64,000 bases of DNA from Xestospongia bergquistia (taxonomy: Eukaryota > Porifera > Demospongiae > Haplosclerida > Petrosiidae). Positions 27,372 to 61,720 of the stretch are shown here, one piece after another (the first letter of the stretch is position 1; each line of letters starts with the position of its first letter). A model generated the notes under the pieces. That model was not told where the DNA came from. It made no database searches and saw only the letters and a program-made list of their open reading frames with translations. Position numbers and translations under genes: made by a program. The DNA is taken from assembly GCA_963965975.1 (NCBI GenBank), contig OZ014411.1, positions 12,664,501 to 12,728,500 on the forward strand. The letters are read 5' to 3'.

Positions 27372-30300
27372 TCAGGATAATGATTGTGTTGTTATTCTTA
27401 AATGAATTAAAATACTAGACAGTTTTCGTTTGGTAGCTTGATCAGGTCCAACTTTCTTTTGCCAGGCCAACAGAATGATTAATATACGTTGCCAACGAGA
27501 GTAGTGGGATAATGCCAAACGAATTTCCTCTTCTTTATCTACTCCAAGAGCTGCTGTCAGTTGCTTTACTTCCTCATGATTTTGAAGTTCATTATCTAAT
27601 TCCATAGCTAAATCAAAGAGCTTGTCTGGAGTAATTATATCTATACAAATGTAAAAAATAAAAAAGTGAATCGATGTCAAGCAAGAGGCCTCAAGTTAAG
27701 CACTAAATTATACATAATATAGGCAAAACATTGCTAATGTTGAATCAATTAATTGTTGTTGTTCTCATTATAATTTATCAGTAAATATCAATATCAAAAT
27801 ATATACAGTGCCTTACCGCTTTGTCTAAGAGTCTTTTCATACATCTAAAAAAAGGACAATAAATTTATATTATGTATATATAAACTTGACACTTAGTCAT
27901 AAACCAAAGCTGAAATTATAACTTACTTCTAAAATGTTCTCATTCCAACTCTTCCTGAGAAGACTTTTTGTAGCCTCACATGAATGACAAAGTTGCTTTG
28001 AAGGAAGTATTTCATATTTTGTTTTAAGATGATCACCTTCTTGGAGTTTTATAGGTTGAAGACAAACAAGAGCAAAACGATATGATAGATCTTTAATCAT
28101 TTTGCAAATTGTATCTAAAGCTCTTTTACAACACTGTAAAATTTTTTCACAGACTGAATCTAGTTCAGATCTATTATTGTACTCGATTATCAACTCCAAA
28201 TGTGTGCTGTGGAAAATAACCTGAAGCTCATACTCTCGTCCTTTAGATGTGATTACAAACTTTACAACATTAACTTCACTAGTAGAAACAAACAAAACAT
28301 TTGGTAAAGTAAGTATCCTTTGAGTAAACAGTCCCTGAACATCTGGAGGTGTAAACTTATAGTCATATAAAATGAATAATGAGTTAAATGATGTTTTTTG
28401 AACTCTAAGATTACCTCTTCTAGCAGAGGGAACAAATAACAAAGGAGGCCACGAGTCACTTATTGAAGCAGGAAAATGATCTACCAAGGTTTCAGTGGAA
28501 TAAGCTCGAGAGCGCCTTTCTTTCTTAACTTGCTGCAATTTCTTACTGTGTACCTCAGCAGCTAAGCCTAGAGAGCAGAGTGTGGGGACTATCACTTCAC
28601 TTGCTTCCTTTGATAAAAGTTCTATGACTTGCTGCTCAGTGAACAAGCCATCAAAGGTGGCCTCTTCACTTCCTTTCGGAGGGTAAAAAAGATGGCACAA
28701 AAGATTTACAAACTTGACTGGCTGAAGAATAATTATATTTTTGAGGGAAGGAATGTTTGGAATATAGAAAATACTTGAAAATTCTGTGAAAGTTTTAAGA
28801 AATTCTAGATATTCACTACCTTCAATATCTAGTTCTAAAGCATATGCCTCAAGCTCATGTTTGCTTATGAACATTCTATCAGTAAAATAAAATAAACTAC
28901 GTAAGAATATCCAAGATAACTTTATATTTTTACGCAATGTTCTTTTCTTGATCATATTTTCAAATAAAAGCTTCAGTTCATGTGAGTCACTATCATCAGT
29001 AAAATTTAACACTAGTATATTGTCTAAAATGGGTTTTGGCAATCCAAGATGCTGAGCTTCAGATGATAATTCACGACAAAGAGTTTCTTTAGCAGTCTCC
29101 TTTTCTTTTGGTGACAAGGACTTGTTAGAAGAGATAATAAATGCAACAGCTGGAGACTGCAATGGAGTTTTAGGAACTGCTAAATGCGTTGCTGCTGCAA
29201 ATTGAAGCATATAAGAAATTTTTGAACCTCTTTCCATTAGTGGCTTTTCACTGTCATATCCAGGAAAGCTAAGGTTAGGCATTTCTTTTAAGTTATGTAT
29301 GTCATCAATGCTGACTACAAAAAAGCCAAGTTGGCGATGTGTATAACGTGAAACAAGTGATAAAAAGTTGTACACACCTTTGCTAAATCCTACATCAAAA
29401 ATATTGCCAAAAACCACACCTGATGATACAACACGCTTCAGTTCTGGGCTAATGTCTGTTCGTCTTAATGTACGATCAATATCACAATAAATACGATGAA
29501 GATGCCTATTCAAGGTGTCGTCTTCAAATATTTTTGGGACATCTCCTGATATGGCAATTTGATCAAGTTCTATTTGCTGCCCCTGCAGGAGACTATCATG
29601 TAAAATAGCTGAACTACAAGTAAACGTGTGCATTGAACGTTGCGTAAAAGGCATCCAACATAACGACTCATCTGCATTCCCTCCAAGGACAGATATACCA
29701 TAATGAGATAGACGATGTTTTTCATATGTGTTCATTAACATAGGACTTGATATGTCATCAGTAGAAACAGACAAAGAATGTTTTAGAAAGTTATGCACTA
29801 ATGTTGACTTTCCACAATTTGGTAATCCACCCACTGCAGCAAGAAACAGATTACATGAGACAGTCTTTTTTACAATGACGTCTTTGAAGTCACTAACTGA
29901 CAGCGTGAGAGTACCTAAGGAAATTAGACCATATCAGTTAAATAATGTATGACTTTGACACTAATTGAACATTGTACACCAAATATATGTACAATGCTTA
30001 CTTGGTTTCTCTTTGATTTCCAACAGTTTATTCATAATACTATCAAGTACAGGATCTTCAGGAAAAGCAAATGCAGCCATATCAAGAAGTGAAGGAAATA
30101 ATGTGATGGGAGACAATGGACGGGACATTGGTAAGGAATAGGGTACTTCATTTTGTTCAGGCTCTTCTCTGTGATGATCCAACTTGCTGGTCTAGAAGAA
30201 TGACAAAGCTTCATTAGCCATATATACCTACTGACACAGTGTTCACTATTAGAGGTGAACATTTGTTACCATATGGATTGGTGGTTAAAATATGCAGTTT

Positions 30301-33300
30301 AATTTTATTTGTCACTTTTATAACAAAAGCAAATTGACAAACGCACATGTAGATAGATAATTATCTAATATCCTGGAAACAGTAGACATGTTTATAGTTG
30401 GAATAAGTTTATGCCTGCTAACTGTATTAATTCCTATCAAGTATGTTTGTTGCTATTCAGATTGAATGCACATTAATAGCTGAAAACTAAATGAGATGTC
30501 ATGTATCACATTACCTCAAAATGCGTTCATGTTCACGACTTCCTATAGTCAGTACTATATCCACTTTAAACCACATACAGAAGTGGATTAAAGCAAATCC
30601 AAATTTAAACCTCATTCACTGAATGCATATTGTGTTTAAACAAAGTTGATATGTATTGTAACTGAATCAACTACACTTTATTTATATGCTTATTTGCAGA
30701 ACTGCCTGACGTACTATGTATGCATGCCTGGCAGTAATCAATAATTATGATATCCAAATATAGGTTTGAATTCTATCTGCGCTTTAGAAAATGCATGTAC
30801 AAGTAGAAGTTTAAAACATGGGGGAGGGATATTGATCATGAAGCATGAAGTGTGGCTGAAAATTGTTCAGCTACATAATTATTCATAGTCATTGCCAATC
30901 GATTTTCTCACCATAAACGTGCTTAATTTTTGTATTATTACAAACAACAAAAAAATACACACTTAGTTAAGGGCTCAAACTCGCTGTAACAAATACTCTT
31001 AAACAAACGTACAATTTGTAATTCTTATAAAATGTATATTCAATTACACGTGTATATAATTACTTTACTAAACATGCACATGTCTCCTTTTTCTGGTACA
31101 TATACAACAGGCACTTATATACTTAAAATTTCAAATTCACTTAATTTGAAGCAAGAACAAATAATGTACCTGTAGTACTTTGTCTTGGCCTGGTAATTCC
31201 ACAGGAAACATGAGAAGTAAGTCATTTTTCTGTTTATAAGAAAGTTCTAATTCATTAAAATAACAATGAAGTTATTATATATGTATCTTAATTAATGTGT
31301 AACAACTTCAACAATTTTAGTGACTACTGTAATAATCACAAAATCTGTATATGCTAAAATATTAAATTTCATTAGGTTGAATTTGGAATTGCTTGGAAAT
31401 TCATTGAAACATTTATTAATGCTAGATAAATCTGAATATTTAAAATTTGCTATTTTAGTCTTTTTATGCAATTAATAGTAAGCTCAATCAATTGAGGTAA
31501 CATTTTAATATGAATAGTTACATGTACATATATTTAAAGTATGCCCTTTTAGATCTCATGATAATAAATTACTAATTATTGTAGTTGTACATGCTTAAAA
31601 CATTTTAATCTGTCAAAAATACTAATGTCTTGCAATAATTTAATTGAAAAAGTAACATCCTACTTTCAGTTTTAAGAATTATTATACACATAGAAACAGA
31701 ATATTGAATGCTATAACTCTACTAACAATGACAATATTATAAGCTATATCCATCTGATATAAAATTTGAGTTCACCAAGGGTACGCACATAGATACTGCA
31801 TTATCAAAACTTTTAGTATAATGCTTAAAATTTAATGACAACTTTTCAAAATATTCATTATTTATAAGTAATAAACTTCTTTGGCTTGTGGCATCTAATT
31901 TACCATTAGATATAGCTTACTGTTGGCTGTTTAGATCTTCTTGAACCATATGTAATACCGCTATCCTTGTCACTAATTTCCTATGATATGAAACACAGAT
32001 CACAATCACAAAACATCAATATCAAACAAAATCAGAAAAAAGCCTCAAGTACAAGAAGATTATCAACTTTTAATATATCTTTGGCTTGTTACATCTAATT
32101 TACCATTAGATATAGCTTACTGTTGGCTGTTTAGATCTTCTTGAACCATATGTAATACCGCTATCCTTGTCACTAATTTCCTATGATATGAAACACAGAT
32201 CACAATCACAAAACATCAATATCAAACAAAATCAGAAAAAAGCCTCAAGTACAAGAAGATTATCAACTTTTAATATATCTTTGGCTTGTTACATCTAATT
32301 TACCATTAGATCTAGCTTACTGTTGGCTGTTTAGATCTTCTTGAACCATATGTAATACCGCTATCCTTGTCACTAATTTCCTGTGATATAAAACACAGAT
32401 CACAATCACAAAACACCAATAGCAAAATCAGAAAAAACCCTCAAGTACAATGAAATTATTTACTTTTAACATATCTAAAAATGCATGAGTCCATGCTTAC
32501 AGTATTATGTGAAAGGATTATCTTATACACACATGTAATGCAATGAGTTGGCTATGCATATGTTAAGTAATGCCATGGTTCCACCTCCCACTATATGGAA
32601 AAGCCACATTTATCAACATGCTGTACTCTTCATGCATTTGAGTGTTTGAATGGATAGAGTTTCTATTCCTTAAAGCACTCAAAATAAGAGTTATAAAAGT
32701 GGGTATCTTATGTAAAATCATAACTTTCTGTGTAAAAGTATTTTTAAAAACCTTTATTCAAATTATCTTGAGGTTGTTATTTATATTTATTAATTGCTTT
32801 TTAGAATGTTTTAACTACCAGTAAGCTATATCCGTTTGATATAAAAATTGATTCCTAAACTAAATCTTCTTATTATAGATACTGTATTATCAAATCATCT
32901 AGCATAATTTTTTTTTGTATTTACCATTGGCAATTTCATGATTAACTTACTGTTGGGATGATAAGCTGTTCCAAACTTGAAATGTGTGAGACACAACTCT
33001 TGCTATCCTTAATATCACTTTCCTATGATGATAAAACAGAGGTAACAATATCATAAGACATCAATAACAAAATCAGTAAAACTGCATCATGGCAAAACAT
33101 GATAACTTTCAACATATCACAAAGTGAAGTCCAAGTTTACTTTATAATTATCATTTGAAAGCATCATATTATATTCACATGTAGTTAGCATAGATTTACC
33201 TCATGTATTGACTCTTGAATTAGAGATTGAGAGTTATACTCTGACAGTTCCACATTAGATAACTATTATTAAAGGTAAAAATACATAATAATATAATAAT

Positions 33301-36300
33301 ATTGAAAGGTGTCTGTGGTATATATCTCTTGTACTTTTAAAAACAAACCATATAATGAGCATACCAGTAAGTTCTCAGAAGATAGATCAGCAGGTGGTTC
33401 TGGCTGGTTTGGCTTAATCATATCACTCTATATAAATAGTAACAAATTGAAGATTGTTACTTTGAGTTTTATTTTATATTCTTAGGTTATTGCTTGTTGA
33501 AATATCTATCAACCATGGCCTATATTAAAGACATTCTAACATATAAAATCAGTGATCAACATACCAAATGTGTTTTGAACATAAAAGTACTTCTGAATGA
33601 TTGGATATGATTGTTTCATATGTATATGTATACATACAATCCTTTTGTATGACATTACTTTAGTTTTATTTTACACCAACACTTTATGTTTTATGAATGT
33701 TTTAGGGGTAGGTTTGTTATAATACATACATAGCACATGCATACATAGTAACTTGGAAAGAAAAAACAGATGTCCACCTTTAGCTTGCATACAATAGAGA
33801 CCCACCATGTTTGAGGACACAGCACAAAACAAAAATTATAATAATAATTTAATTTACAGCTTTCATTCTTAACATTACATAGCTATACACTGCATGTTGC
33901 TAGTGGAAAATCATGTTTTTGTGAAAAAAAATGCTCATAATGTTTGTTTTCTGCTACTATTTGTAAAACATATTTCAACAGAACATTGCTATAACTTATA
34001 ACGATTACTAATGTATATATCTGACAGTAAATACTGAACTGGCAATGTACTATTATACCTCTATCTTACTTAACAGAAGACAAGACAAATCTGATTTACA
34101 TACAAGATAGACTTCAACTCCATTTTGTTTTATGACCTCCATTCATTTTATTTCCTATTAATCCAAAGAAGCCATTGTGATGGTTAAAATAATACATACA
34201 ACAATGCAAATTTTAACTGTTTATAGCAAAGGGCACAACAAAATAGCTCTCTAACCTTACCATATTCATACCACTACACCCATATATGCTATGAACAATC
34301 AATCAGTTTTTGGTAGTAATGGCTGCCTAGTGCTGAAATATATGATGTAACATTACTTTTGTCAATTATTTTAATTAATTTCTGTTTGCTAAAGCACTCG
34401 AAATAAGAGTTATAAAGTCAGTATCTTATATAAAATCGTACGTTTCAGTGTAAAAAGTGTTTTTAAAAAGCCTTATTGTTTTACACTTAACAAGGGCAAA
34501 CAGAATAGTAGATTAAATATCTTGGCATCACTACATAGGGAGTGCCACTGTGTCTACTTGATAATATAGCTTATAAATAATGCCCATCAGCATCTAAATG
34601 TCTGGTAAAATCACATCACACCATACAGTCCATAGCATCATGACATCATATACATTGTACCCCAGACAACTACTATCTACTACATAATTAAATGTGCTTA
34701 TGTTCAAAATTTTTTTAACACGTAAATTTTTTACATGAAACTTTTATGACGTGAAAGTTTCCCGATCTACGGTACTTATTTTAAAGATCCATGGTGATAA
34801 ACAACAAAATCATAAAAAACTACATCATGCCATAACATTGTGAGATATGGAGATACAGAGGACATTGCTTTAACACAATGAGTCAAACAGCATCCAGCTC
34901 TAATGTTGTATAATCTCTTGAAAATCAGCATATTTGAGGCAGTGCATTAGTATATTTGAGGCAGTGTATTAGTATATTTGAGGCAGTGCATTAGTATGCA
35001 CAGAGCAGCTCCATCTAACAATGATGAAGGTAACTTAACCAAGAACTGTCTTACCCATAGGCGTCCCTGTTACCCATTAACTTTATTTGACTTTAATTTA
35101 TAGGAAAAAGTGCTCATGTAATCTGATAAGTATATAGTCACATGAGTCGGGTTGACTTCAGGCATCCAAGCTATAATTAATCTTGTTTAATTTGGAAAAT
35201 ATGACATCCACTTTTATATCAATATTAACTGTGAATATTTTTATGCAGATATACTGTGACTTCTAATCCTTTGGTGCTTGGAATATGACAGGCAGTCATT
35301 TTGGATCACAAGTTAACTACATATGTTTTGATGCTAATTCAATTCATTTTATTCTATGTTCGTATGTGAAAATTTAAAGCATCACATAAACTTGTTTTCT
35401 ATATTATTGTTTTAGTGTGTTTTAACTACCAATAAGCTATAATTATATATATATAAATTAATTGACCTCACCAATAAAATTAAACTTAATGTATCTAATA
35501 CATTAATCTTAATTTAAAAAGTAGTATCATAACATGTACATGTAAACTTTGGTTCCATTTACCATTACTAATTTGAGCTTTAACTTACTGTTATCTGTTC
35601 TGATCTTCTATGACTCTTGCTATCATCAAAATCACTTTCCTATGATGAAGAAAAAGAGGTGACTATCATCTGAGAGATCAATAACAAATCAGAAAAAATA
35701 CATCATGCCACAACATTATCAACTTTCAACATATCTGGAAAGTGAAGTCCATGCTTACAGAATCATTGAAAAGCATCATATTATATAAAATTATCATATC
35801 ATATTATATTTATATTATTATACTATGTATTTATAATTCAAACTCTATTTTAAAGAGTATTTTTTAAACATCCAATGTAGTGTGCCATGCAATCCTTTTG
35901 TATGACATTCCTTTAGTTTTATTTCACACTAACACTTTATGTTTTATGAATTTTTAGGGATAGATTTGTTACAATATGAAATAATGTAAAGGGTAGAGGG
36001 TGGAAGTCAGTTTAATGACAAAATTTAGAGGTCAGGTCAGGCTCAGAAAATGAATTAAGGACACCCTATGAAATTTTAACTGTCTGAGCTACAACAATGG
36101 ATGCATGAGATTGTTCTTTGAATAGAATCTATACACATGTGATATGCAAGATGATAATTCTAAAACATTCCTCCTTTAATTATCTTAAAGATACAAACAT
36201 TGTCTGTGGAGACATTATACCATACTAGAATATAGAAAAGCAAGTAGAAAAGACTTCAGTGAGCATGCATAGACTACTGTGAGATAGGTACTAGCAATCT

Positions 36301-38753
36301 ATGAACTAAGTGAGTTGTTTATCAGGGTCTGGTCTGGAAAGTAATTTGAATCTTTATATGTTTCTATATGCATGTCAGCAATTATTAAGTAAGCATTTCA
36401 ATAGTCACATACAATAACAGAATACAATTTTGACTAATCAACCAAGTCCACTTCATTAGACGGAGCCAATTTAGAAATCTACCTATTCTTCTAATCTACT
36501 TATCAGCACTAGAACTTCCAGTTGTGTGGTGCTTACTAACGTTATCTACTTTATAACTTGCAAAATTATAGTATTAATTCATAGATACTGTTAACCACTG
36601 GAAATTGTCACTTGCTATAAACAAAATTATTGAAGACAAATATTCATATATGGGTGTGAATGAAGTTCATAGTGGAACAATGAACATCAACATATCAAAA
36701 ATCTACACAATGCATGTTTACTCTGCAACTTTTGTTCTTGCACTTTAATAATATCATGAAGTGTCATCACCTTAAGTAACTGTATGTAATTAAGCAATGA
36801 TTATAATACACTACATATATAACTTAAAAATAGTACACATCCATGTCCATATACTATCAAATAATCCATATACTAATAATCACGTTTTTTGTACTAATTT
36901 GTGATGAAATTCATAGCATTGTATGTTGTGACACTTTCATGCAATATTGTTCACTAGAACAATCCATGAATATCATAGTATTTTTGAATAAACACTATTG
37001 GATGTTTGTTATAACCTACTATAGTAATATCGAGCCTGAATATACCACCAACTTTTTAATATCTTTCATATAACACATGAATATATTAATTTTAAAAAGA
37101 AAATACCTGATCAGGTGACTTTGACTGATTGATCTGATCACGAGAAGGTAGCATTGTACTTGAATCTGTTTGTGAATTAAGTGAATTAAGCACAATATAA
37201 ATGTCTATATATACCTTTGCTTTGATCATCTTTAATTCCTTCCTCCGTTTCTGGAAGTTCAATACTCACTCCTAAGTCATGAAATTTTTTCTGAACAGCT
37301 GGAGACTTTAGAGATTCTAAAGCATCATTAAGAGCTGAAGGAAGGATTGCATAAGTAACGATGATACAGTTTTCTTCTAATTCTTGGAGTAAACATGACT
37401 CATACCAGGAATAACCAAAAAATAAGGTCCTCCACCTATGAAAATATTCTCGAAACCAAAAGTCATCAAGATGAAACACAATATTTGGCAAACCAATAGG
37501 AGCTACTGACTTAAGATCAGGATTTTCATGAAAGATAGACATAATATTTTTGAATGTAGCTTTACTAATAAGCTTAACATACAATTCTTCATATTCCTTA
37601 AACTTTCTCCTAATTTTTTCATCTTCAGCTAGTTTCGCGATACGCTTTAAAGGAACATAATTAAGATAACCATAAAAATCATGCTCTTTTAAATAATCGA
37701 AAAAGCTATCCATATCTTTCATTTTACGAAGTTTATGCCGATATATATCCATTCCTGTTTCCCCTTTGATACGTATATCCACCTTAAGTTCTTGATCAAC
37801 GAATGATGTCACTTCATCTAAACTAATGCCATTAGAGAGAAGTGAATTTTTCACTTTGTATGGTAACTTGTGAAAGCGATTCCGCAATAATTCTGCTATT
37901 TTCTTCAACTCTCTAACTTCATCAATCCTTCTCAATAAATTAGTAAGTGAACCTACATAAACACAAATATCATCAATATTAGTTAATGTTAGGAGCAACA
38001 TCTGCACTTTACCTGTATCAGCTCTAGGAATTAATTGTGTATCATCAGATGCAGTCTTGTGAATATCTATGTATAAAAGCAACAAAACTTAGCCTATTAT
38101 TGTCCTAAGACTTTTGAGATAGAATTGAAAACTAAACAAGACTTCTTAAAATAATACATGTAACAATCAGTTGTACACATGATTATAGCTCCTATATATT
38201 TGCAAACAAGTTCTAAAAATGGCCTGAAAGTTGACAGAACTACCTATATAAGTAATGATTGAGTATAACATGGTACTTTATATTGTCGTGTAACAAATTA
38301 GTAACAAATGTACCTGTTTTAACTTCACTTAGACCATTAGGAAATATTTCTTGATTTCCTTTACGATAAATATAAATATCTAAAATCATTATTATACACA
38401 CAGCACATACCAAGCAACATTTCAAGCTCTTCACATAAATCTCTACCAACTGTCCCTGCTGGTCCACCAAGACCTATAAGAATCTCAATGAAAGAAGAAC
38501 ATTGAGTCTCCACCTCCAAAATGCTTTTACATAACTCCAATCCAACTTTGAACTCATGTACTATACTACTATAGCTTTTTTCTTCCCGGGCACCTTCAGA
38601 TATAAGTTGAGCTTCAAAGGCTTTGCTAGCAAAAGTATCAATAGATTTCTTTAATGATAAGCTGAGAACGTTGAAGTGGGTATCAAAAATTTTGATGACA
38701 GATTTTCTGTAGCTTCTTAGCTGTGTTTTGATCGCCTCGTTTGGACTAGCCAT
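27372..38753 (-). CDS. Gene 1: Roc/COR-like P-loop protein with death-fold C-terminus
   Basis: Seventeen GT-AG exons sum to 4224 nt (1407 aa) in one frame: 38411-38753, 38314-38379, 38013-38066, 37215-37952, 37107-37165, 35589-35639, 33365-33427, 33200-33262, 32951-33022, 32321-32380, 32121-32180, 31921-31980, 31170-31229, 30002-30191, 27927-29914, 27817-27844 and 27372-27640. Residues 1-114 are helical and death-fold-like. About 155-400 is a helical domain of unknown function (RRIDEVRELKKIAELLRNRF, later SWYESCLLQELEEN). About 401-583 is a Ser/Pro/Gln-rich linker made of small exons. The 663-residue core has a P-loop (GGLPNCGKST, about 675-684), FDVGFSKG, FFVVSIDD, AFIISSNK, then a winged-helix COR-like part (SWIFLRSLFYFTD, HLFYPPKGSEEATFDG). 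The last 89 residues look like a death domain (LTAALGVDKEEEIRLALSHY, then ILLAWQKKVG). The P-loop and domain order are seen; the Roc/COR and death assignments are inferred, with human DAPK1 (Roc-COR-death) the closest known layout. Likely an intracellular signalling or immune-type switch protein. Confidence 0.8.
31880..32474. repeat. Three 200-bp tandem units, each with one 60-nt exon
   Basis: Units start at 31880, 32080 and 32280, exactly 200 bases apart and nearly identical; the third diverges toward its end. Each contains, on the minus strand, an acceptor (CATAG), a 20-codon exon (EISDKDSGITYGSRRSKQPT) and a GTAAGC donor. All three are open and phase 0, so gene 1 would carry the peptide up to three times. 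The unit is probably a very recent tandem exon duplication. Confidence 0.9.
34929..34994. repeat. 22-bp minisatellite, three copies
   Basis: Three consecutive copies of a 22-base unit (TATTTGAGGCAGTG core followed by ATTAG) inside a gene 1 intron, differing at one or two bases. No function visible. Confidence 0.85.
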
Positions 38754-39659
38754 CTTTGGTGTGATACGCCCCTAGCAATGTCCTCAGATGTTAGTAAGTG
38801 GGTGTCTGAGGGAGAACGCCCACTAGCTAACGCGTTAGTGTGTGGCTGTCTGCTATGGGATTTTCTGTGTGGTAGTCTAGGGATCTGAAGAACAGAATTC
38901 ACATGCTCCAATATCAATAGGTAAAGAACACCCCATAAATTACCATGGAATAACTTTGAGTAATGTTCTAAGTAAAGTCTTTGAGAAATAATGTCTTCAC
39001 TATAATCAAATCAGCCTTACATTCCTAACTTCTCTAACCCTCTAAGTCTTGACTGTGTACCTATTACATACACTGCACATTAATAATGCACTATATCATA
39101 CAATAATGTCATATGAAATCAAGTCTGTTTTCTAGAAGTTTTAGCAAATATTAGAATTGAGATAAATAAGTTACAGTGAGTACATTACTTTAGTAAATTA
39201 TGCCATTAGAAATACCTCTACATAATTATAAATATAGATAACATCTCCCCAACCCTGCCACTTATGGGGAGAATTCAGAAAGGGCTATGACCCTGACAGT
39301 TCTAAATATCAATGATATATGTGGCAACAAACTTTGACATTCTTAATTATATTTACAGAGTTCACCATCTTGTCAACTCAATAAATTTGACCCAAAAACT
39401 TAGAGAGACAAAAAAAACAGCAAAAAATGACTCAAAAGAATTGTAGTAAATATAAATCCCTTTCTTCTTTAGTGAAAAAGGTCACTGCATGGCAATATCA
39501 AAACTAAGTGGGTAAAAAAGCTGGTAAACTGAGGAAAGCAATATTTGAGCATTCATAATGGACATTTATAATATCATTTCAGTAACTATTGCCATAAAAA
39601 CTAATTCCAGTTAATGCAACAAAAATAAGAGATACATTTACATACTCTAACATCAACTA
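38754..39659. other. Gene 1 upstream region joined to a copied 3' flank
   Basis: The first about 170 bases upstream of the gene 1 start codon are less AT-rich than their surroundings (AACGCGTTAG, GGGCGTATC) and may hold its promoter. From about 38.94 kb the sequence is a shortened copy of the 3' flank found after the other family members (GTCTGTTTTCTAGAAGTTTT, CACTTATGGGGAGAATTCAG). Confidence 0.5.
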
Positions 39660-39900
39660 TGAGCTCTCATGTAGCTACAAATAAGCCAAGTTGGTGATGT
39701 GCATAACGTGAAACAAGTGATAAAAAGTTGTACACACCTTTGCTAAATCCTACATCAAAAATATTGCCAAAAACCACACCTGATGATACAACACGTTTCA
39801 ATTCTGGGCTAATGTCTGTTCGCCTTAATGTATGATCAATATCACAATAAATACGATGAAGATGCCTATTCAAAGTGTCGTCTTTAAAAATATTTGGGGC
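39660..39900 (-). pseudogene. Orphan fragment of the GTPase-like core
   Basis: About 68 codons (NRHLHRIYCDID, SPELKRVVSSGVVFGNIFDV, NFLSLVSRYAHHQLGLFV) match the middle of the P-loop exons of genes 1 and 2, with only a few changes. It is cut on both sides: upstream at the position after FEDDTL, downstream by a jump straight into the shared 3' flank. It lacks the P-loop and everything after the Walker-B-like strand. The piece missing from the damaged paralog at 45.8-47.7 kb overlaps this one. Confidence 0.85.
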
Positions 39901-40292
39901 ATCATGATATGGTATTGTTTTTGTGATGATAAAAAGGATACATAGTAGAATACAGGTTAAATTAGTATATTGTGATAAAAATGAAACATAATTACTCTAG
40001 TGTAAGTTGATATACTGCATGAATGAAGAATGCTTGTGGTAAAATTCCTAAAGTATGTGATACATGGAATGTGCTATGTAAACACTTGGCGATTTCTTGA
40101 AGGCTACATATTCCAATGAAAGTGAGAGAATCGTATGTTTAATAATACCTAGAAACTAATAGTATTAGTAAGAACCATTGTTCATATTACCTACTAATAA
40201 CCCCAGTTTCTACCTTATACATCCTTTTATCTACCTATATATCTATTTATCTACTTATATATCCCTTCATTTACTCTATACATCCATTCACC

Positions 40293-41226: not shown

Positions 41227-41291
41227 TTATTTGCAGTAGTAAGCAACAGGATCACAGCTTCCTAAAGGGCAGGATGTGCCACTACAAGAGC
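41227..41291 (-). other. Possible Cys-rich terminal exon
   Basis: After the acceptor TTTTTCAG the minus strand reads, in the common intron phase 1, SCSGTSCPLGSCDPVAYYCK and then a stop. Five cysteines in about 20 residues suggest the end of a small secreted Cys-rich protein. No upstream exon was found, so it may be a stray fragment. Confidence 0.25.
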
Positions 41292-45352: not shown

Positions 45353-45355
<3 letters not shown>

Positions 45356-45795
45356 GCTTTAGACAAGAGTTCTCTAACTTCAGTCACAGTCACTAATATG
45401 ATAAGCTATAAATTACATACTGACTTTAGAAGAAGTGTACATTTTCACAAATTTCTTACTTTTTCAGAGCTGAACTTAATTATAATAAGTTTATCTTTAA
45501 TTTTGTTTAACATAATAGTAGGATAATCATATGCTGCATTAAGAATATTAGTAAAACTTATCTATAAACAGCATATGTGAATATAATTCACTCTAAACCT
45601 CAAAATAAGATATAGTCAATAATCTTCCACACTCATTGCTGAGTATGTATTGTGTGAAAAGGTCATGGTTGTATCAATTTTATAAGAATTAATTTCTATG
45701 ATTAAAAAAATCCAAAGTGAAGAACAAAACAATACCATACATAGCCATGGAGAAGAATAAAATTATATATAACATGAATATGTATGTATTGAATG

Positions 45796-47966
45796 TCAGG
45801 ATAATGATTGTGTTGTTATTCTTAAACGAATTAAAATACTAGACAGTTTTCGCTTGGTAGCTTGATCAGGTCCAACTTTCTTTTGCCAGGCCAACAGAAT
45901 GATTAATATATGTTGCCAACGAGAGTAGTGGGATAATGCCAAATGAATTTCCTCTTCTTTATCTACTCCAAGAGCTGCTGTCAGTTGCTTTACTTCCTCA
46001 TGACTTTGAAGATCTTTATCTAGTTCCATAGCTAAATCAAAGAGTTTGTCTGGAGTAATAATATCTATACAAATACAAGAATAAAAAGTGAGTCTATGTC
46101 AAGCAAGAGGCCTCAAGTAAAACACTAAATATACATAATATAGACAATGTTGAACCAACTAATTGTTGTTGTCATTATAATTTATCAGTGAACATCAGTA
46201 TCAAATTATATACAATGTCTTACCACTTTGTCTAAGAGTCTTTTCATACATCTAAAAAAAGGACAACAAATTTATATTATATAATTATAAACTTGATATT
46301 TATATTAATAAACCAAAAATGAAATTATAACTTACTTCTAAAATGTTCTCATTCCAACTCTTCCGGAGAAGACTTTTTGTAGCCTCACATGAATGACAAA
46401 GTTTCTTTGAAGGAAGTATTTCATATTTTGTTTTAACACAATCACCTTCTTGGAGTATAGGTTGAAGACAAAAAAGAGCAAAACGATACGATAAATTCTT
46501 AATCATGTTGCAAATGGTATCTAAAGCTCTTTTACAACACTGTAACACCTTTTCACAGACCGAATGGAGTTCAGATCTATCATGATACTCCATTATCAAC
46601 TTGAACCATGTGCCATGGAAAATAATTTGAAACTCATATTCTCGTCCTTTATATGATGAAATTATAAACTTAATAACATTAACTTCATTTGTAGAAACAA
46701 ACAATACATTTGGTAAATGAAGTAATTGTTGAGTAAACAGTCCTTGAACATTTGGGGGTGTAAATTTATAGTCATAAAAAATGACTAATGAATCAAATGA
46801 TGTTTGTTGGGGTCTAAGATTACCTCTTCTAGCAGAGGGAACAAATAACAAAGAAGGAGGCTTAGAGTCACTTAGCAAGGCAGGAAAATGAATTACAAAT
46901 GTGTCAGTGGAATAAGCTTGGGGGCGCCTTTCCTTCTTATCTTGTTGTAATTTTTTACTGGGTACCTCAGCAGCTAAACCTAAAGAGCAGAGTGTGGGCA
47001 CTATCACTTCACTTGCCTCCCGTGATAAAAGTCCCATCACTTGCTCATCAGTGAACAAGCCATCAAAGGTGGCCTCTTCACTTCCTGTTGGAGGATAAAA
47101 AAGATGGCGCAAAAGATTTGTAAACTTGATTGTTGAAGAATAATTGTATTTCCGAGGGGAGTAATGTCTGGGATATAGAAAATGCTTGCAAATTCTGTGA
47201 ATTTTTGAAGAAATTCTCGATATTCACTACTTTGAATGTTTAGCTCTAAAGCATAAGTTTCAAGCTCATCCTTACTTATAAACATTCTATCAGTAAAATA
47301 AAATAAACTACGTAAAAATATCCAAGACAAGTTTATATTTTCACGCAATATTCCATTTTTAAGCATACTCTCAAACCAAAGTTTGAGTTGCTGCAAGTCA
47401 CTATCATCAGTAGGATTTAACACTAGTATATTGTTTATAATGGTTTTTGGCAGGCCAAGACGTTGAGCTTCAGATGATAGTGCATGACCTAAAGTTGCTT
47501 TAGCAGTCTCCTTTTGTTCAGGTGACAAAAACTTATTACAAGAGATAACAAAAGCAACAGCTGAAGACTGCAATGGAGTTTTAGGAACCGCTAAATGTGT
47601 TGCTACTGCAAATTGAAGCATATAAGTAATTTTTTAATGAACTTACTGCAGTTATTGACTCTTGAATTGGCAATTCAGGATTATCATAAGTAAACCGTGT
47701 CTGTTCCAAGTTAGATAACTAATCTTAATACATGACAATACATTATAAAGTATGTGTATAAATATCTTGTATTATCAAAATAAAACCATACATTTGTAAT
47801 TAGCATTAAACAAGCATACCTTTAGTAATAATATATATAATTATATAATAACTCCATACATTTAGAAATTAGCATGCAATTTATATATTTTTGGTGTTTT
47901 CTGTTCAAATGAAGGAGTTCTAGGATCAGCAGGTGGTTCTGGTTGGTTTGGCTTAAACTTGGAGTT
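45796..47966 (-). pseudogene. Damaged paralog of genes 1 and 2 (core without P-loop)
   Basis: It keeps the death-domain exon (45796-46062, LTAALGVDKEEEIHLALSHY), the 28-nt exon, and the core from YMLQFAVATHLAV onward (46300-47625). It has lost everything before that point, including the P-loop. A one-base deletion near 47130 (in the segment equal to LQPVKF) breaks the frame. Directly upstream sits a linker exon, 47647-47718 (LSNLEQTRFTYDNPELPIQE), and a piece of another ending at 47966 (KPNQPEPPADPRTPSF). These are homologous to the gene 1 linker exons at 33200 and 33365. So a deletion has joined the middle of the core exon to the linker region. Not expected to be functional. Confidence 0.85.
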
Positions 47967-51137: not shown

Positions 51138-51276
51138 CTTAGCAAAGGTGTAGGAACTAGGAGGCAATTTCTAAGTGCAGAGGTCAATGGGTGTAATACG
51201 TAGGCGTGACTAGTTATTAATGGGTGGGACGGGTTAATTAACTTGATTAATTATATTAAGTGAAAATTTGAATTCT

Positions 51277-51579: not shown

Positions 51580-51794
51580 TTATTGTATTGCATAATTATA
51601 TTTTGGAAAGAAATGAAAACTATTAAAATGTTATAAAATTCATTAAAAGTGCGTGACGTCATTACTTGATTCAAGAATGTAATCATTCCGTATCAGTTTT
51701 GATTGGATCAGGACACTGCCCCAAGTTGCCGAATCATATGTAACTGATACGATTTGAATCGTCACTGACATCAGACCTGACACAAAATTTAGTT

Positions 51795-53972
51795 CTTGGC
51801 TATGTAATTAACTAACATGAGCTGCAATACGCCATTGTCTTCATTTCAACAAAAATGATGTAACAGCTTGTACATTTAGTGTGCACAAGTCTTGATAGGT
51901 CTATCTATAATCTAGTACCAACAAATACTAATGGTTGACCAATAGTGTAGGTCACGTTAATAGCAGCACCAGCCTAGAAAGGGGGTGGAGTCAGATGGAA
52001 GATGGTATCAAATTTAGTGACTGAGGACAATCTTGTTAATACCATGTGGATTTTAATTGTTGCTGTCAGCATATTCTATAAAAGCTCGATTGAACTTGAC
52101 TAACTGATCAACTGCTTGGTTCCTAGCCTCACCCACAAATAACACAAGATCAGGAGAATTGACTCACATAAGCTATAAACAAATGGACAATTAACTATTA
52201 GATTGAAATAATGATTAATAAAGACAAGGTAACGATTAGTCTCATTCCCAGACCTACTGGTAGTCAGTTCTTCATTAAGTCTGGGAATGAGACTAAGTAG
52301 ATCAGAGATACACTTTCCTGCTAAAAGTTATAATTAAGTGCTACAAAATGACCATATATGTATGTGTGAGAGTTACTAAATGTTATATGTTCAATTGAAA
52401 ATGTGAGTATTATTACTGATAGCTATCATATACATGAATACTCTCAATCTATTGGGGTTAGTTGTCTGGGACTGTTGCTAGACATATATAGATACAACAT
52501 GTTAATATAAAATCTGTTTCAATATATGACACAATCTCTATACCTTACAATAACCTTAAAGCCATTTATCAAAATGCATATTTTTTGATTCTAAATACAA
52601 AGTAGTTTCTATAAAAGTTAATTATAATGAGAGAAATGCAAAAGAGCTTCACCATATTGTGTTGACAATGTGTGGATGGTGTTGATATGGTATGAATCTG
52701 TTTCATAAATTATTTGTGTCAACAACCTACATGTGTACACATAGCTTTTGTGTTTTAATGTACTACATACTATTAACATTCAATGCTGGCTAAAATGTGG
52801 ATTGGGAACAATATAATGTCATGTTAAATCAAGTCTGTTTTCTAGAAGTTTTAGCAAATGTTAGCATTGAGATAAATAAGTTAAAGTTACTTTAGTGAAT
52901 TATGCCATTAAAAATAATTCTACAGAATTATAAATATATAGATACCACTTTCCCCAACCCTACCACTTATGAAGAGAATTCAGAAAATGCTATGACCATG
53001 CCCATACATTTTTTTATTCTACAGGAATCCATCACATTTTGTAGAGAAGACAGTTCTAAATATCAATGGTGTCTGGCAGATTTTCCAACAAACTCTGACA
53101 TTCTTAATTATATTTATAAAGTTTAGCATATTGTCAACTCAATAAATTTGATCCAAAAACTTAGAGAGGGAAGAAAAACAACAAAAAATGACTCAAAAGA
53201 TCTGTAGTAAATATAAATCCAATTCTACTTTAGTGACAAAGGTCACCACCATATGACTACACATGATATCAATTGAAAACTAAGTGGGTATGAAAGCTGA
53301 TAAACTGAGGAAAGTAAATTGAGAATTTCTATATTCATATTTAACATTAAATTTTATAGTCAACAACTATTGTCATAAAAAACTTACTCCAGTTAATGCA
53401 ACAAAAACAAGGGCGATACATTTACATACTCTACCATCAACTAATGTACTGTAGAAAGCACAAATATAAGTAACACACTTGTTATCAAAGGGAGTCATGA
53501 CCATGGCAATGATAATAAAAACACTCAAATTTACAAATCTCATATTCAATGCACTAGGAAGAAAATGTAAATGTCGGGATTATTCTTGTGAGGCTAAAGA
53601 TTGACAAATGCCAGCATTGCCTTGATGAGCTAGTCAAAAAGTACAATGGCCCAATATTATCAAACATGAATAAGTCTAATATCTATGATGGCTCACTTGA
53701 TGCTGTAATTAATCACTTTGTATATTGAGTTTGTCAGTATCTTCTACCAAAATGTGAAATTTACCCTTAAAATGAGTATAAAATAATTAATGTTGTAAAA
53801 AGCTTGTCTGATCACAGAGAAAATATCTGAGCACCAAATATTTTTAATAATTATGTTATTATAATATATAATGTATATTATAATTACTTTATAGTCAGTG
53901 ACAGTCACTTATAAGATAAGCTATAAATTATATACATGAATTCAGTCTACATACTTTAGAAGAAGTGTACAT
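51795..53972. repeat. Duplicated non-coding block II
   Basis: Near-identical to 43.12-45.2 kb, including the hairpin (arms 52236-52253 and 52279-52296). It ends abruptly at about 53972, inside the equivalent of the region before the damaged paralog, and the sequence jumps back to the start of the 3' flank. The breakpoint marks the junction of two duplicated segments. Confidence 0.75.
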
Positions 53973-55468
53973 TTTCACAAATTCCTATAAAATAATTTAT
54001 AATCAGAGAAATACAAAAAGAGGTTTCACCTGTGACCATATTGTATTCACAATGTGTGGATGGTGTTGATGGTATAAATCCATTTCATAAATTATTTGTG
54101 TCAACAACCTACATGTGCACATATGAAACCATAACTTTGTGTTTTAATGTACTACATACTATTAACATTCAATGCTGGCTCAAATGTGGATTGGGAACAA
54201 TATAATGTCATGTAAATCAAGTCTGTTTTCTAGAAGTTTTAACAAATGTTAGCATTGAGACAAGTAAGTTACAGTACATTACTTTAGTAAATAAATTATG
54301 CTATTATAAGTCTTTCTATATAATCATAAATATAGACAATATCTCCCCAATCCTATACCACTTATGGGGAGAATTCAGAAAAGACTATGGCCCTGCTCAT
54401 ACATCTTTTATTGTACAGGAATCCATTGCATGTTGTAGAGAAGACAGTTCTAAATATCAATGGTGTCTGGCACTTTTTCCAACAAACTCTGACATTCTTA
54501 ATTATATCTACAGAGTTCGGCATCTAGTCAACTCAATAAATTTGAACCAAAAAACTTAGAGAGGCAAGAAAAAACAACAAAACACGACCAAATACAAATC
54601 TCTTTCTACTTTAGTGAAAAAAGGTCACCATATGACTGCATGCATGCTGGTGATATCAAATATCAAGGCTAAGTGAGTAGAAAGTTGATAAACTGAGGAA
54701 AGCTATAAAGATTGACAAATGCCAGCATTGCCTTGATATGCCGAAATGCACAATGACCCAATATTACCAAACATGAATAAGTCTAATATCTATGATGATT
54801 GACTTGATGCTGTAACTTATCACTTTGCAATTGTATATTGAGTTTCTCAGTATCTTCTACCAAATTGTGAAATTTACCTTTAAAAAGGAGTGTACAATAA
54901 TAAATGGTGTGAAAAGTCTGTCTGATCACAGAGAAAATATCTGAGTACCAAATAGTTTCAATAATTATAATTATTATTATATTATTATAATAATTATATA
55001 TATAATTGCTTTAGACCAGACTTCCTCTAACTTCAGTCACAGTCATTTATATGATAAGCTATATATTATATACATGAATTCAGTCTACATACTGACTTTA
55101 GAAGTGTATATTTTTACATTTTTTTAACTTTTTCAGAGCTGACTTAACCATAATAATTTTATCTCTAATTTTGTTTAGTTATGATAACATAATAGTAGGA
55201 AAATTATTTGCTGCATTAAGAATATTAGTAAAACTTATCTTACAGCATATGCAAATATAATTCATGCACTCTACACCTCAAAGTAAGATACAGTCAGTAA
55301 TCTTCCACACTCATTCACTGAGTATGTATTGAGTGAAAAGGTGATGGCTTATCAATTTTATGAAAATTAATTTTCTATGATTAAAAAATCCAAACTGAAC
55401 AACAAAACAATACCATGCATGGCAATGGAAGAAAAATAAAATTATATATAACGTGTATGAATTGAGTG
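53973..55468. repeat. 3' flank of gene 2, copy of the gene 1 3' flank
   Basis: Matches 25.9-27.37 kb almost base for base, continuing without a break into the last exon of gene 2. No gene seen. Confidence 0.7.
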
Positions 55469-58400
55469 TCAGGATAATGATTGTGTTGTTATTCTTAAAC
55501 GAATTAAAATACTAGACAGTTTTCGCTTAGTAGCTTGATCAGGTCCAACTTTCTTTTGCCAGGCCAACAGAATGATAAATATACGTTGCCAACGAGAGTA
55601 GTGGGATAATGCCAAACGAATTTCCTCTTCTTTATCTACTCCAAGAGCTGCTGTCAGTTGCTTTACTTCCTCATGACTTTGAAGTTCATTATCTAATTCC
55701 ATAGCTAAATCAAAGAGCTTGTCTGGAGTAATTATCTCTATACAAATGTAAAAAATAAAAAAAGTGAATCGATGTCAAGCAAGAGGCCTCAAGTTAAGCA
55801 CTAAATTATACATATTATAGGCAAAACATTGCTAATGTTGAATCAATTAATTGTTGTTGTTCTAATTATAATTTATCAGTGAATATCAATATCAAAATAT
55901 ATACAGTGCCTTACCGCTTTGTCTAAGAGTCTTTTCATACATCTAAAAAAAGGACAATAAATTTATATTATGTATATATAAACTTGATACTTAGTCATAA
56001 ACCAAAGCTGAAATTATAACTTACTTCTAAAATGTTCTCATTCCAACTCTTCCGGAGAAGACTTTTTGTAGCCTCACATGAATGACAAAGTTGCTTTGAA
56101 GGAAGTATTTCATACTTTATTTTAAGATGTTCACCTTCTTGGAGTTTTATAGGTTGAAGACAAACAAGAGCAAAACGATATGATAGATCTTTAATCATTT
56201 TGCAAATTGTATCTAAAGCTCTTTTACAACACTGTAAAATCTTTTCACAGACTGAATCTAGTTCAGATCTATTATGGTACTCAATTATCAACTCCAAATG
56301 TGTGCTGTGGAAAATAACCTGAAGCTCATACTCTCGTCCTTTAGATGTGATTACAAACTTTACAACATTAACTTCACTAGTAGAAACAAACAATACATTC
56401 GGTAAAGTAAGTATCCTTTGAGTAAACAGTCCCTGAACATCTGGAGGTGTAAACTTATAGTCATATAAAATGAATAATGAGTTGAATGATGTTTTTTGAG
56501 CTCTAAGATTACCTCTTCTAGCAGAGGGAACAAATAACAAAGGAGGCCGTGAGTCACTTATTGAAACAGGAAAATGATCTACCAACGTGTCAGTGGAATA
56601 AGCTCGAGGACGCCTTTCCTTCTTAACTTGCTGCAATTTCTTACTGTATACCTCAGCAGCTAAACCTAAAGAGCAAAGTGTGGGGACTATCACTTCACTT
56701 GCCTCTTTTGATAAAAGTTCTATGACTTGCTGCTCAGTAAACAAGCCATCAAAGGTGGCCTCTTCACTTCCTTTTGGTGGGTAAAAAAGATGGCACAAAA
56801 GATTTACAAACTTGACTGGCTGAAGAATAATTGTATTTTTGAGGGAAGGAATGTCTGGAATATAGAAAATACTTACAAATTCTGTGAAAGTTTTAAGAAA
56901 TTCTAGATAATCACTACCTTCAATATCTAGTTCTAAAGCATATTCCTCAAGCTCATGTTTGCTTATGAACATTCTATCAGTAAAATAAAATAAACTACGT
57001 AAGAATATCCAAGATAACTTTATATTTTCACGCAATGTTCTTTTCTTGATCATATTTTCAAATAAAAGCTTCAGTTCATGTGAGTCACTATCATCAGTAA
57101 AATTTAACACTAGTATATCGTCTAAAATGGGTTTTGGCAATCCAAGACGCTGAGCTTCAGATGATAATTCACGACAAAGAGTTTCTTTAGCAGTCTCCTT
57201 TTCTTTTGGAGGCAAGGACTTATTACTAGAGATAATAAATGCAACAGCTGGAGACTGCAATGGACTTTTCGGGACTGCTAAATGCGTTGCTGCTGCAAAT
57301 TGAAGCATATAAGAAATTTTTGAACCTCTTTCCATTATTGGCTTTTCAGTGTCATATCCAGGAAAGCTAAGGTTAGGCATTTCTTTTAAGTTATGTATGT
57401 CATCAATGCTGACTACAAAAAAGCCAAGTTGGCGATGTGCATAACGTGAAACAAGTGATAAAAAGTTGTACACACCTTTGCTAAATCCTACATCAAAAAT
57501 ATTGCCAAAAACCACACCTGATGATACAACACGCTTCAGTTCTGGGCTAATGTCTGTTCGTCTTAATGTACGATCAATATCACAATAAATACGATGAAGA
57601 TGCCTATTCAAGGTGTCGTCTTCAAATATTTTTGGGACATCTCCTGATATGGCAATTTGATCAAGTTCTATTTGCTGCCCCTGCAGGAGACTATCATGTA
57701 AAATAGCTGAACTACAAGTAAATGTGTGCATTGAACGTTGCGTAAAAGGCATCCACCATAACGAGTCATCTGCATTCCCTCCAAGGACAGATATACCATA
57801 ATGAGATAGACGACGTTTTTCATATGTGTTCATTAACATTGGGCTTGCTATGTCATCAGTAGAAACAGACAAAGAATGTTTTAGAAAGTTATGCACTAAT
57901 GTTGACTTTCCACAATTTGGTAGTCCACCCACTGCAGCAAGAAACAGACTACACGAGACAGTCTTTTTGACAATGATGTCTTTGAAGTCACTAACTGACA
58001 GCGTGAGAGTACCTAAGGAAATTAGACCATATCAGTTAAATAATGTAAGTCTTTGATACTAATTTAACATTGTACACCAAATATATGTACAATGCTTACT
58101 TGGTTTCTCTTTGATTTCCAACAGTTTATTCATAATACTATCAAGTACAGGATCTTCAGGAAAAGCAAATGCAGCCATATCAAGAAGTGAAGGAAATAAT
58201 GCGATGGGAGACAATGGACGGGACATTGGTAAGGAACAGGGTATTTCATTTTGCTTAGGCTCTTCTCTGTGATGATCCAATGTTTGTTTTGTTAGCTATT
58301 GAAAATAATATGTGATTTCCAAAGAATTATTAATGGTACTGTCCTATTTAGTACTCACCTTCTCATTCTGCTTTTCAATTTGTAAGTTTAGCTTATCGAC

Positions 58401-61400
58401 CATCTCCTGCATTTTCTTAATTTTCCTTTTAAGTGGAAAACTATCCACCTGTGTAAATATAGAATAGAGAACAAAATTAAGATCATAATTAAAACAATCA
58501 TCCTATTATAATTGTTTAAAGGTACTGACAATTTGGAAATAGAGAGCTAGCAGAGAGAATACAAAATGCTGGAAGGCAGACACAAAGCAACTTGCTAGTC
58601 TAGAAGAACAACAAACTTGATTAGCCATACCTACTAACACAGTGCTCACTATTAGAGGTGAACATTTGTTACCATACAGATTGGTGGTTAAAATATGTAG
58701 TTTAATTTTACTTGTCACTTTTATAAAAATGAAATCCAAGTTGACATACACATATGTAGACAGATAATTACCTAATGGCAATAGACATGTTTATAGTTGG
58801 AATAAGTTTATGTCTGCTAACTGTACTAATTCCTATCAAGTAAGTTTGTTGTTATTCAGATTGAATGAACTGTTTCATATTACCTCAAAATGCATTAATG
58901 TTCACATCACAACTGACTACCTATAGTCTGTAGTATATTTGCTTTAAAACCACATACAGAAGTGGATTAAAGCAAAAACAAATTTAAACCTCATTCATTG
59001 AATGCACATTGTGTTTAAACAAAGTTGATATGTATTGTAACTGAATAAACTACACTTTATTTACATACTTATTTACAGAACTCCCTGACATACTGTGCAT
59101 GCCAGGCAGTAAACAATATGACATCCAAATATATATAGGTTTGAATTCTGTCTGTGCTCCAGAACATGCATGTACAGGTATACAGAAGTTTAAAAAGTGC
59201 GGGGTATTGATCATGCAGCATGAAGCTTAAGTGTGGCTGAAAATTGTTCAGCCATTTAATTATTCACAGAGTCATTGCCAATCAGTTTCTCACCATAAAT
59301 TTGCTTACTTGTATTATTACAAACAAGAAATAAATACATACTCAGTGTAAGGGCTGAAATTCGTTGTAACAAACGCTCTGAAACAAGCCTACAAGCTGTA
59401 ATTCCTGTAAAAACTATATTCAAATACACATGTATGTAATTCCTTTACTAAACATGCACATGTCTCCCTTTTCTGCTACATATACATTAGATACTTGCAT
59501 GCTTGAAATTTTAAATTCACTTAATTTGAAGCAGGAACATGATGTACCTGTGTTGTTTTGCCTTGGGCTGGTAATTCCACAGGAAATAAGTCATTTTTCT
59601 GTTCATAAAAAAGTTCAAAATCATTAAAACACAATTAAGTCATATGTACCTTAATTAATTAAGCCTATTATTATTTGTGTGTAACAACTTTAACAATTTT
59701 AGCATTTACTGTAATAATCACAAAAGTCTATATATGCTAAAATATTAAATTTCTTTAGGTTGAATTTGGCATTGCTTGGAAATTCACTGAAACATTTATT
59801 AATTCTTGATAAATCTGAACATTTAAAATTTGCTATTTGTAGTATTATTACGCAATTGTGTAGCAGGCTCAATTGAGGTAACATTTTAATATGCATAAAT
59901 TTACATGTATACATATTTAAAGCATGCCCTTTTAGATCTCATGATAACAAATCACTAATTATAATTGTACAAAGAAAGAAGTCTGGGAACACAATTTGAT
60001 GCTTAAAACATTTATGATGCTCAAACTATTAATGTGTTGCAATAATTTAATAAAAAAGTACCATAAGCTAAGAATTATTATAAATATAGATGCAGAATAT
60101 TGAATGTCATAACTCTATTAACTGAGTTGGAACTAATGCAAGCTTTGTAAACCAAAAAATGTAACTTTAAGAAACATACATGTACTTTTGGAGTTGATTC
60201 TTCAACTGGGGAACCAGAAGGACTAAGATCAGCAGGTGGTTCCTGTTTCAACTCAGGTTCCTAAATTGAAATAGTAATTACACATGTATAAAACCACCAA
60301 GGGTATTGGTATCGAGAGTGATGACTTTGTTGGATTTAGATTCATTAGTTTTAGTTTTAATACAAATGTGTATTTTAGAAAAATGCCCATCATAGTTGGA
60401 TATCATGATTTTATTTCTATTTGTTCAGTTGTCATTTCTTAATTGTGAATTACATAAAGGAAGTAGTTGAACACCTTTCAGTGTTGACTTTAAATTAAAT
60501 TAAGGCATCTTTGTGTTTGGTAACAAAGACAAACTGTAGCAGATATATATCAAAACTGACAATAATAATATTTTAGTTTAAGTTTTTGTTAGTTTTACAA
60601 TTTCAAAAATAGTTTTACTTACTAAAAGTCAAAAGGGCAGACTATAATAGCAAACTAATATGATTCAATGTAATTCACCCATTACTGTGGTATGGTTTCT
60701 TCATTTTAGTTCTTTCATTACGAAATAACTCCTTCTCAAGACAAATAGTTTTATTATACTCTTGTAGTAACAAATCAAACTAATAATTTCAGTGATATAA
60801 GAAGCAACTGTGTTTCGCAACTGGAAAAATTGCTGTCGATTAACTTCAGTTTCAAAACTTACTTTTCTATGGCTGTTTGGCTAACATCAAAATTTCTATT
60901 AGCGATTACCAAAACTATTTTGATTTGGTAAGCTAATAAAATATATATTTCCCACTGTACAATATAACTGCTGGGTTTGCATGTTGGTAAAACCACTGGA
61001 AGTTAATAGACTTCATTTAATTCTACTAACACAATTCAAACAACCATTGTGTGTTTACTTCCTTGCTTTAAATTACTAGGAAGGCAGCAAAGTGTCAGAC
61101 ACACCCATTCATAAATGAATTAATATTTTGTTATTAATAATCTGTATACACTAACTGTTGATAATGTAAGTTGACTGCCTGTTTTTGATGACACCTGTGA
61201 AATCATGCTCCTGCTATCAATTAGGTCATCAACACTTCTTGCCTGTACAGACAAAAAGGATAATTAACTGGATATTGTTGATATTATTTTATACTAATAA
61301 AATTAAATTAACTCGTGTAAAAAGCAAGTAGAGTCTGTAGATGTTAACTTTGATCTGATAAAACAGGCTTATTTATACACTTTTTTACAATGCAATGAGA

Positions 61401-61720
61401 AGTCACACATTCTTACATGGTATGTATTTCAATCCATAGCATTTTTGAACTCTATGTCAGTACTTTGCTTTGGGGAAATACAATTAATTTTGGAATCACA
61501 AGAGATACATTTACCACATGATTGGGAATTCTCCAGTAGAGTATCTTAACTTAGATGCTTTAATATTCAAAGATAACGTGGACAGCTACATAAGTAACTG
61601 TAATAGAATACATGATATTAACAATATTATTACATTGTCTAGATCTGTTGGTTCTTTTACGAACTGACTGCCAAGAGTGCTACTTGCTTGGGAAGGTGAA
61701 GTACAATAGTCGTCGTCCAT
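55469..61720 (-). CDS. Gene 2: Roc/COR-like P-loop protein with death-fold C-terminus, short form
   Basis: Nine GT-AG exons sum to 2871 nt (956 aa): 61634-61720, 61156-61242, 60186-60260, 59548-59598, 58359-58448, 58100-58295, 56025-58012, 55915-55942 and 55469-55737. It begins MDDDYCTSPSQASSTLGSQF, unlike gene 1. Residues 30-100 are Ser/Pro-rich linker exons (EPELKQEPPADLSPSGSPVE). About 101-130 is a basic coiled-coil exon (KIKKMQEMVDKLNLQIEKQN) that gene 1 does not have. The 663-codon core exon has exactly the same length as in gene 1 (1988 nt), with about two dozen residue changes and the P-loop GGLPNCGKST at about 224-233, followed by the same COR-like and death-like parts. It has no N-terminal death-fold-like exon and no 246-residue helical domain. 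Both genes look intact, so this pair is a recent duplicate with a re-made N-terminus. Confidence 0.8.

Follow-up and report, generated by a model that had tools for sequence, protein, structure and literature searches.

A 64,000-nucleotide (nt) stretch of the genome of the sponge Xestospongia bergquistia (contig OZ014411.1, positions 12,664,501 to 12,728,500 of the forward strand; here called the window) carries two genes, gene 1 and gene 2, which, as we propose with moderate confidence, encode Roco-type proteins composed of an exchangeable N-terminus, a Roc-COR switch and a death-domain-like C-terminus, and acting in an innate-immune or cell-death pathway. Roc-COR proteins are known mainly from LRRK2, the Parkinson's disease protein, from DAPK1 and from bacteria; the Roc-COR module dimerises and changes state with nucleotide, and death domains assemble homotypically. 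The core of the two genes belongs to a large family in this genome, in which the phosphate-binding loop (P-loop) has been lost in part of the members and different heads are joined to the same core.

The exon borders of both genes were set by GT-AG signals and reading frame, and the join was then translated (Table 1). Gene 1 (38753-27372, minus strand) has 15 exons and encodes 1405 amino acids (aa), and gene 2 (61720-55469, minus strand) has 9 exons and encodes 958 aa, each in a single continuous frame. The original prediction, made from the sequence alone, had assigned 9 exons to gene 2, which our model reproduces, and 17 to gene 1, for which the same procedure yields only 15 (additional small exons could exist in its linker); the equal lengths of the 3' exons (1988, 28 and 269 nt) recur in both models. 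The core of a third gene, gene 0 (locus L003), has been found just left of the window. This core shows 67% identity, at a synonymous divergence (dS) near 0.77, and gene 0 shares the acceptor position before the core, the donor position after it, the 28-nt exon and a related tail. Since the acceptor, the donor and the 28-nt exon recur in gene 0, chance is excluded for the 3' part of the gene models, and the conservation of the 3' exons at this distance provides, apart from RNA, the strongest evidence for the reality of the 3' models of genes 1 and 2. The head and the core of gene 1 probably lie on one transcript, as suggested by the frame rather than by RNA.

In the predicted model of the core, a Roc G-domain fold is followed directly by COR, and the closest structural matches are the bacterial and archaeal Roc-COR proteins 3dpu, 6hlu and 4wnr, at 9-13% identity. 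The COR-A profile matches 9 of the 28 family members at E <=0.1 (best 2.3e-9). The Roc/COR assignment, originally made by eye, is thus borne out by predicted structure and fold match, and in part by the COR-A profile. A core clearly of another P-loop class, the outcome that the original prediction had set against itself, was tested for and rejected, as predicted structure and fold match both gave Roc-COR. No NACHT or other STAND family was found when the cores were scanned with Pfam.

The tail of the family is death-like according to profile comparison. Compared with a set of 14 Death domains taken from this genome, a profile built from 21 tails scored 87.7% (E 3.4e-6), as opposed to 0.3, 0.7 and 0.3% for three control profiles against the same domains; besides, a hidden Markov model (HMM) of these same-genome Death domains matches one tail, that of gene 0, at 3e-4. 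Together, these two results support a death-like C-terminal end, as had been claimed. A tail has been found downstream of 24 of the 28 long cores examined; 21 of these 24 are the members of the tail profile, and the remaining three matched it (L026 at 1e-7, L080 at 3e-9 and L081 at 9e-10).

A search of the 146-Mb genome with the core of gene 2 gave 54 matches; joining those no more than 1.5 kb apart leaves about 48 places, a rough figure that counts the broken copy and the fragments in the window and takes two genes at C10 (L007 and L008) as one. Clusters of core matches reach ten places. Open frames of at least 600 aa contain 47 of the 54 matches, and as three pairs share a frame, this corresponds to 44 frames. 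The ratio of nonsynonymous to synonymous divergence (dN/dS) is 0.25-0.58 in all 19 core pairs with dS <0.9. The isolated core fragment at 39675-39912, upstream of gene 1, shows breakage within the cluster.

Several results weigh against the Roco-type reading. The confidence of the core model is middling, with a predicted local distance difference test (pLDDT) score of 64 and of 42-53 in the other four models of the run, and the five COR-A matches examined singly fall below the curated cut-off. None of the 54 core matches is found with Pfam Roc (PF08477) among the matches listed (best 150 of 452 candidates, compared by eye), and the family core profile, run against PDB sequences, finds no Roco chain, its best match being a Dictyostelium uniporter at 0.0047. 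The NKxD motif is absent at the aligned position from all 28 members. As to the C-terminus, Pfam Death matches neither the tail of gene 1 nor any of the 21 tails scanned singly, a genome scan with it lists no match at the tails (compared by eye), the same-genome Death HMM detects no tail other than that of gene 0 at 1e-3, and among the 28 long cores examined no tail was seen after L011, L013, L021 and L028. The first exon of gene 1, originally called death-fold-like by eye, has no Pfam Death match and gives only 0.3% in the profile comparison with Death domains, so that this part of the prediction is not supported.

The state of the nucleotide-binding site invites a different view of the whole family. 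Of 27 members, 13 retain the P-loop motif GxxxxGK[ST], genes 1 and 2 among them, and 14 have a degenerate one, while a 28th member is without the region; thus, the motif normally used to bind nucleotide has apparently been lost from about half of the cores examined. All members could then be pseudo-GTPase scaffolds, in which the P-loop motifs are relics and nucleotide is irrelevant, and both the 14 degenerate sites and the missing NKxD would fit. We consider this unlikely, given that the motif is kept in nearly half of the members and that its state is clustered on the tree of 27 cores (4 changes, compared to 9.3 in shuffles); moreover, G4-G5 vary in Roc domains generally, according to the available part of a review (PMC6337361). 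Far less probable still is that we deal with an ordinary DAPK1 derivative that lacks the kinase. The kinship with DAPK1 that had been suggested draws on the shared order of Roc-COR and death domain, but the genome has a separate DAPK-like gene (L082, C10:3214800-3220000), with matches to Pfam Roc at 9e-12, COR-B at 1e-3 and Death at 1.2e-14 and with ankyrin repeats recognised by eye, which the family core profile does not detect (E 0.039 or worse). A DAPK1 orthologue was therefore rejected as unlikely. Profile comparison (hhalign) of the DAPK-like gene with the family gave 0.2% for COR and 25.6% for Roc, with low power. A second DAPK-like Roc - COR-B - Death locus has been found at C9:6281800-6285400 (L083), 24-26% identical to the former.

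The cores of genes 1 and 2, which had been called identical, are alike rather than identical: core plus tail show 97.1% nt identity (dN 0.020, dS 0.066) and the cores 96% aa identity. The similarity extends over 4.3 kb (25903-30182 and 53982-58280, 96.6%), introns and 3' flank included, and drops abruptly inside exon 12 of gene 1 to 79% nt identity over the linker between head and core (30180-31726 and 58588-60122). It is therefore likely that the near-identical cores stem from a recent 4.3-kb block duplication or gene conversion and are silent on function, the heads being older. This explanation is compatible with the Roco-type reading and leaves the conservation of the core elsewhere unexplained, where dN/dS stays at 0.25-0.58 at larger distances. 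A haplotype artefact was rejected, since the same contig carries both genes at a distance of 28 kb from each other.

The N-termini of the two genes had been described as unrelated, which holds for the heads and fails for the linker, homologous at 79%. The linker of gene 1 retains exons related to the linker exons of gene 2, while exon 5 of gene 2 is placed within some 300 nt that have no equivalent in gene 1. The candidate first exon of gene 0 resembles that of gene 2 (E 6e-4 as protein; 54 nt at 76%, E 3e-6 as DNA), and a search of the region of gene 1 (29900-40000) did not turn up the Ser-rich first exon of genes 0 and 2. Judged from a single outgroup gene, the short Ser-rich head is most likely ancestral and the head of gene 1 captured: since genes 0 and 2 have the short head in common and the linker is kept, gene 1 would have lost its old head and taken up the module of exons 1 and 2, and the core-tail block of genes 1 and 2 would have become near-identical later, in the way block duplication or gene conversion would leave it. 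The distant paralogues L080 and L081 have a relative of the gene 1 first exon upstream of core and tail (by a putative join), and hence gene 1 may not be the only case of such a head on such a core.

One may nevertheless ask if gene 1 is a single gene. It could comprise a head gene (exons 1 and 2) and a Roc-COR gene beginning within the linker, as reading through the donor of exon 2 meets a stop nine codons on and exon 3 is a short adaptor exon placed by frame alone. We regard this division as rather improbable, because one frame runs through all 15 exons, the first exon common to genes 0 and 2 was not found within 29900-40000, L080 and L081 have a gene-1-type first exon ahead of core and tail (again by a putative join), and other exon 2 loci also have further frames downstream on the same strand.

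The head of gene 1 seems, from the adjacency of frames, to be a module that is placed also before different domains elsewhere in the genome. Exon 1 has at least 150 matches (the best 150 of 254 candidates) and exon 2 has 57, each including itself. A relative of the first exon lies upstream in 10 of the 30 exon 2 loci fetched (gene 1 included, some overlapping), and in seven others (L040, L047, L048, L050, L052, L053 and L054; weakly also in L058) a Death-type exon is found upstream, checked with Pfam Death at L047. On the same strand and within 1.5 kb downstream of exon 2 relatives there are frames for AIG1 GTPase (L059, 7e-19; L060, 1e-18), sacsin (L048, 1e-32; L049, 4e-34), B-box (L063, 9e-7) and Death (L039, 1.5e-5), although L059-L061 and L048-L050 resemble sets of close paralogues, which leaves few independent cases. 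Besides, relatives of the first exon precede a Pfam Death match by 0.2-1.7 kb at no fewer than 16 further places (compared by eye). The proposal that the family keeps its output and swaps its input is thus right about the exchange of N-terminal ends and covers half the picture, as the gene 1 head module itself seems to be reused before other domains.

The predicted model of exon 2 (pLDDT 65) has a helical part up to residue 180, followed by a β-α-β-β-α-β part of TRADD-N-like topology, modelled with low confidence. The TRADD-N domain has a four-stranded fold resembling the RNA recognition motif (RRM), with a small residue plus Ser/Cys at the β2-β3 turn (available part of PMC8195603). At the corresponding turn of exon 2, position 233 is Cys or Ser in 21 of 22 relatives, preceded by a small residue in 4 of 22. 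A TRADD match for exon 2 was sought and none found, and the α/β part may be called TRADD-N-like only. Cas13b and Benyvirus P25 were rejected as identities of exon 2, each being a single weak match, the latter in 1 of 22 relatives. The linker of gene 1 has no Pfam match, and the coiled-coil exon of gene 2 matches Pfam CCDC28 weakly, at 0.061, under the cut-off. Three of the gene 1 linker exons, 60 nt each and identical in DNA, lie in a 200-nt tandem repeat (31878-32477), one unit of which is only 78% alike overall.

Comparison with known systems places these proteins near several of them. Like DAPK1, assigned to a third Roco group (PMC6337361, in the part available), they have Roc-COR followed by a C-terminal death domain and no leucine-rich repeats (LRRs); unlike it, they have no kinase in their gene models, as no protein kinase domain was found in Pfam scans that covered the cores, the first two exons and the linker of gene 1 and the whole gene 2 head as modelled, and a separate DAPK-like gene exists. 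With LRRK2 and the bacterial and archaeal Roc-COR proteins, which provide the top structural match, they share the Roc G-domain followed by COR, and they differ in lacking kinase and LRR in the models, in the death-like tail and in the frequently degenerate P-loop. The N-terminal unit of gene 1, with an RRM-like α/β domain in the exon 2 model and a variable C-terminus, recalls Amphimedon, where 357 TRADD-N proteins have been reported, in most of which a death-like unit comes first and the C-terminal part varies; the partners named in the available part of that paper (ankyrin, SH3-LRR, kinase, MATH, SH2, PDZ, caspase, PNPase and HD) do not include Roc-COR, and exon 2 is TRADD-N-like by predicted topology (PMC8195603). 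In brown algae a Roc-COR family has likewise expanded, with exons exchanged at the sensing end and an immune role proposed, but there the LRR exons vary, while here whole heads and linker exons do and the end is death-like (available part of PMC11378527). In the accessible part of PMC12909245, COR is named in a figure legend only. Among the top-ranked papers of the open-licence PubMed Central literature we found no description of a Roc-COR-death family in sponges, which is not proof of its absence.

By analogy with these systems, the Roc-COR part would be a dimerising switch, the state of which would depend on a signal received at the head or the linker and, if the P-loop is intact, also on nucleotide. 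Opening of the switch would expose the death domain at the C-terminus, in gene 1 perhaps together with the captured head, and the exposed ends might then seed the assembly of a death-fold complex as part of innate immunity or cell death; the members with degenerate P-loops could be nucleotide-independent partners or decoys. More tentatively, the dozens of loci with a death output and captured heads might make up a repertoire of NLR-like receptors built on Roc-COR instead of NACHT, in which nucleotide-competent and pseudo-GTPase members are maybe paired as sensors and helpers.

The window contains further features. On the plus strand, open frames at 61702-63344 look leucine-rich-repeat-like by eye and may start about 35 nt from the start of gene 2, head to head, so that a common promoter is possible. 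A second duplicated block (43137-45211 and 51805-53870), situated outside the described coding parts, is 93% identical over 2.1 kb. A DDE-type transposase remnant in two overlapping frames lies at 13178-14103 (plus strand; Pfam DDE_3 at 1e-5 and 1e-3, under the cut-off), an open frame that by eye looks like a transposase fragment, without match in a Pfam scan, at 15133-15708 (minus strand), and a large inverted repeat, perhaps a mobile element, at 21480-24775, with 529-nt arms 96% complementary and further arms inside.

Table 1. Exons of genes 1 and 2 and related features, in window coordinates
Feature	Position	Strand	Basis
Gene 1 exon 1, 114 aa, start codon at 38753	38411..38753	-	GT-AG and frame model
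Gene 1 exon 2, 284 aa	37215..38066	-	GT-AG and frame model
Gene 1 exon 3, 59 nt, restores phase 0	37107..37165	-	GT-AG and frame model
Gene 1 linker, eight small exons of 51-72 nt, each a multiple of three	31170..35639	-	GT-AG and frame
Gene 1 exon 12, 190 nt, directly precedes core exon	30002..30191	-	GT-AG and frame model
Gene 1 core exon, 1988 nt, Roc-COR	27927..29914	-	Gene model, predicted structure and fold match
Gene 1 28-nt exon	27817..27844	-	Gene model; recurs in gene 0
Gene 1 last exon, 269 nt including stop, death-like	27372..27640	-	Gene model and profile comparison
Gene 2 exon 1, short Ser-rich head, common to gene 0	61634..61720	-	Gene model and comparison
Gene 2 exon 2, Ser-rich	61156..61242	-	Gene model
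Gene 2 linker exons 3 and 4 (60260-60180, 59598-59548)	59548..60260	-	Gene model
Gene 2 exon 5, coiled coil by eye	58359..58448	-	Gene model
Gene 2 exon 6, 196 nt	58100..58295	-	Gene model
Gene 2 core exon, 1988 nt, Roc-COR, P-loop GLPNCGKS	56025..58012	-	Model and fold match
Gene 2 28-nt exon	55915..55942	-	Gene model
Gene 2 last exon, 269 nt, death-like	55469..55737	-	Gene model and profile comparison
Broken third copy, from the end of Roc through COR to the tail, split over two frames; 28-nt and tail exons still open	45728..47633	-	
Core fragment (residues 131-214) lying isolated 0.9 kb upstream of gene 1	39675..39912	-	
Likely first exon of gene 0, gene-2-type head, putative join to L003 core	1492..1584	-	

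If the Roco-type reading is true, the sponge would have a large animal family that combines Roc-COR with a death-like end and has no kinase, in which the switch would act on its own as a relay in cell death or immunity, as NACHT does in NLRs, and which escapes the listing by the standard Roc profile in this genome. The members with and without the P-loop would then provide natural tests of the role of the nucleotide, and the likely capture of a head by gene 1 would be a concrete case of how new ends may be acquired by exon exchange.

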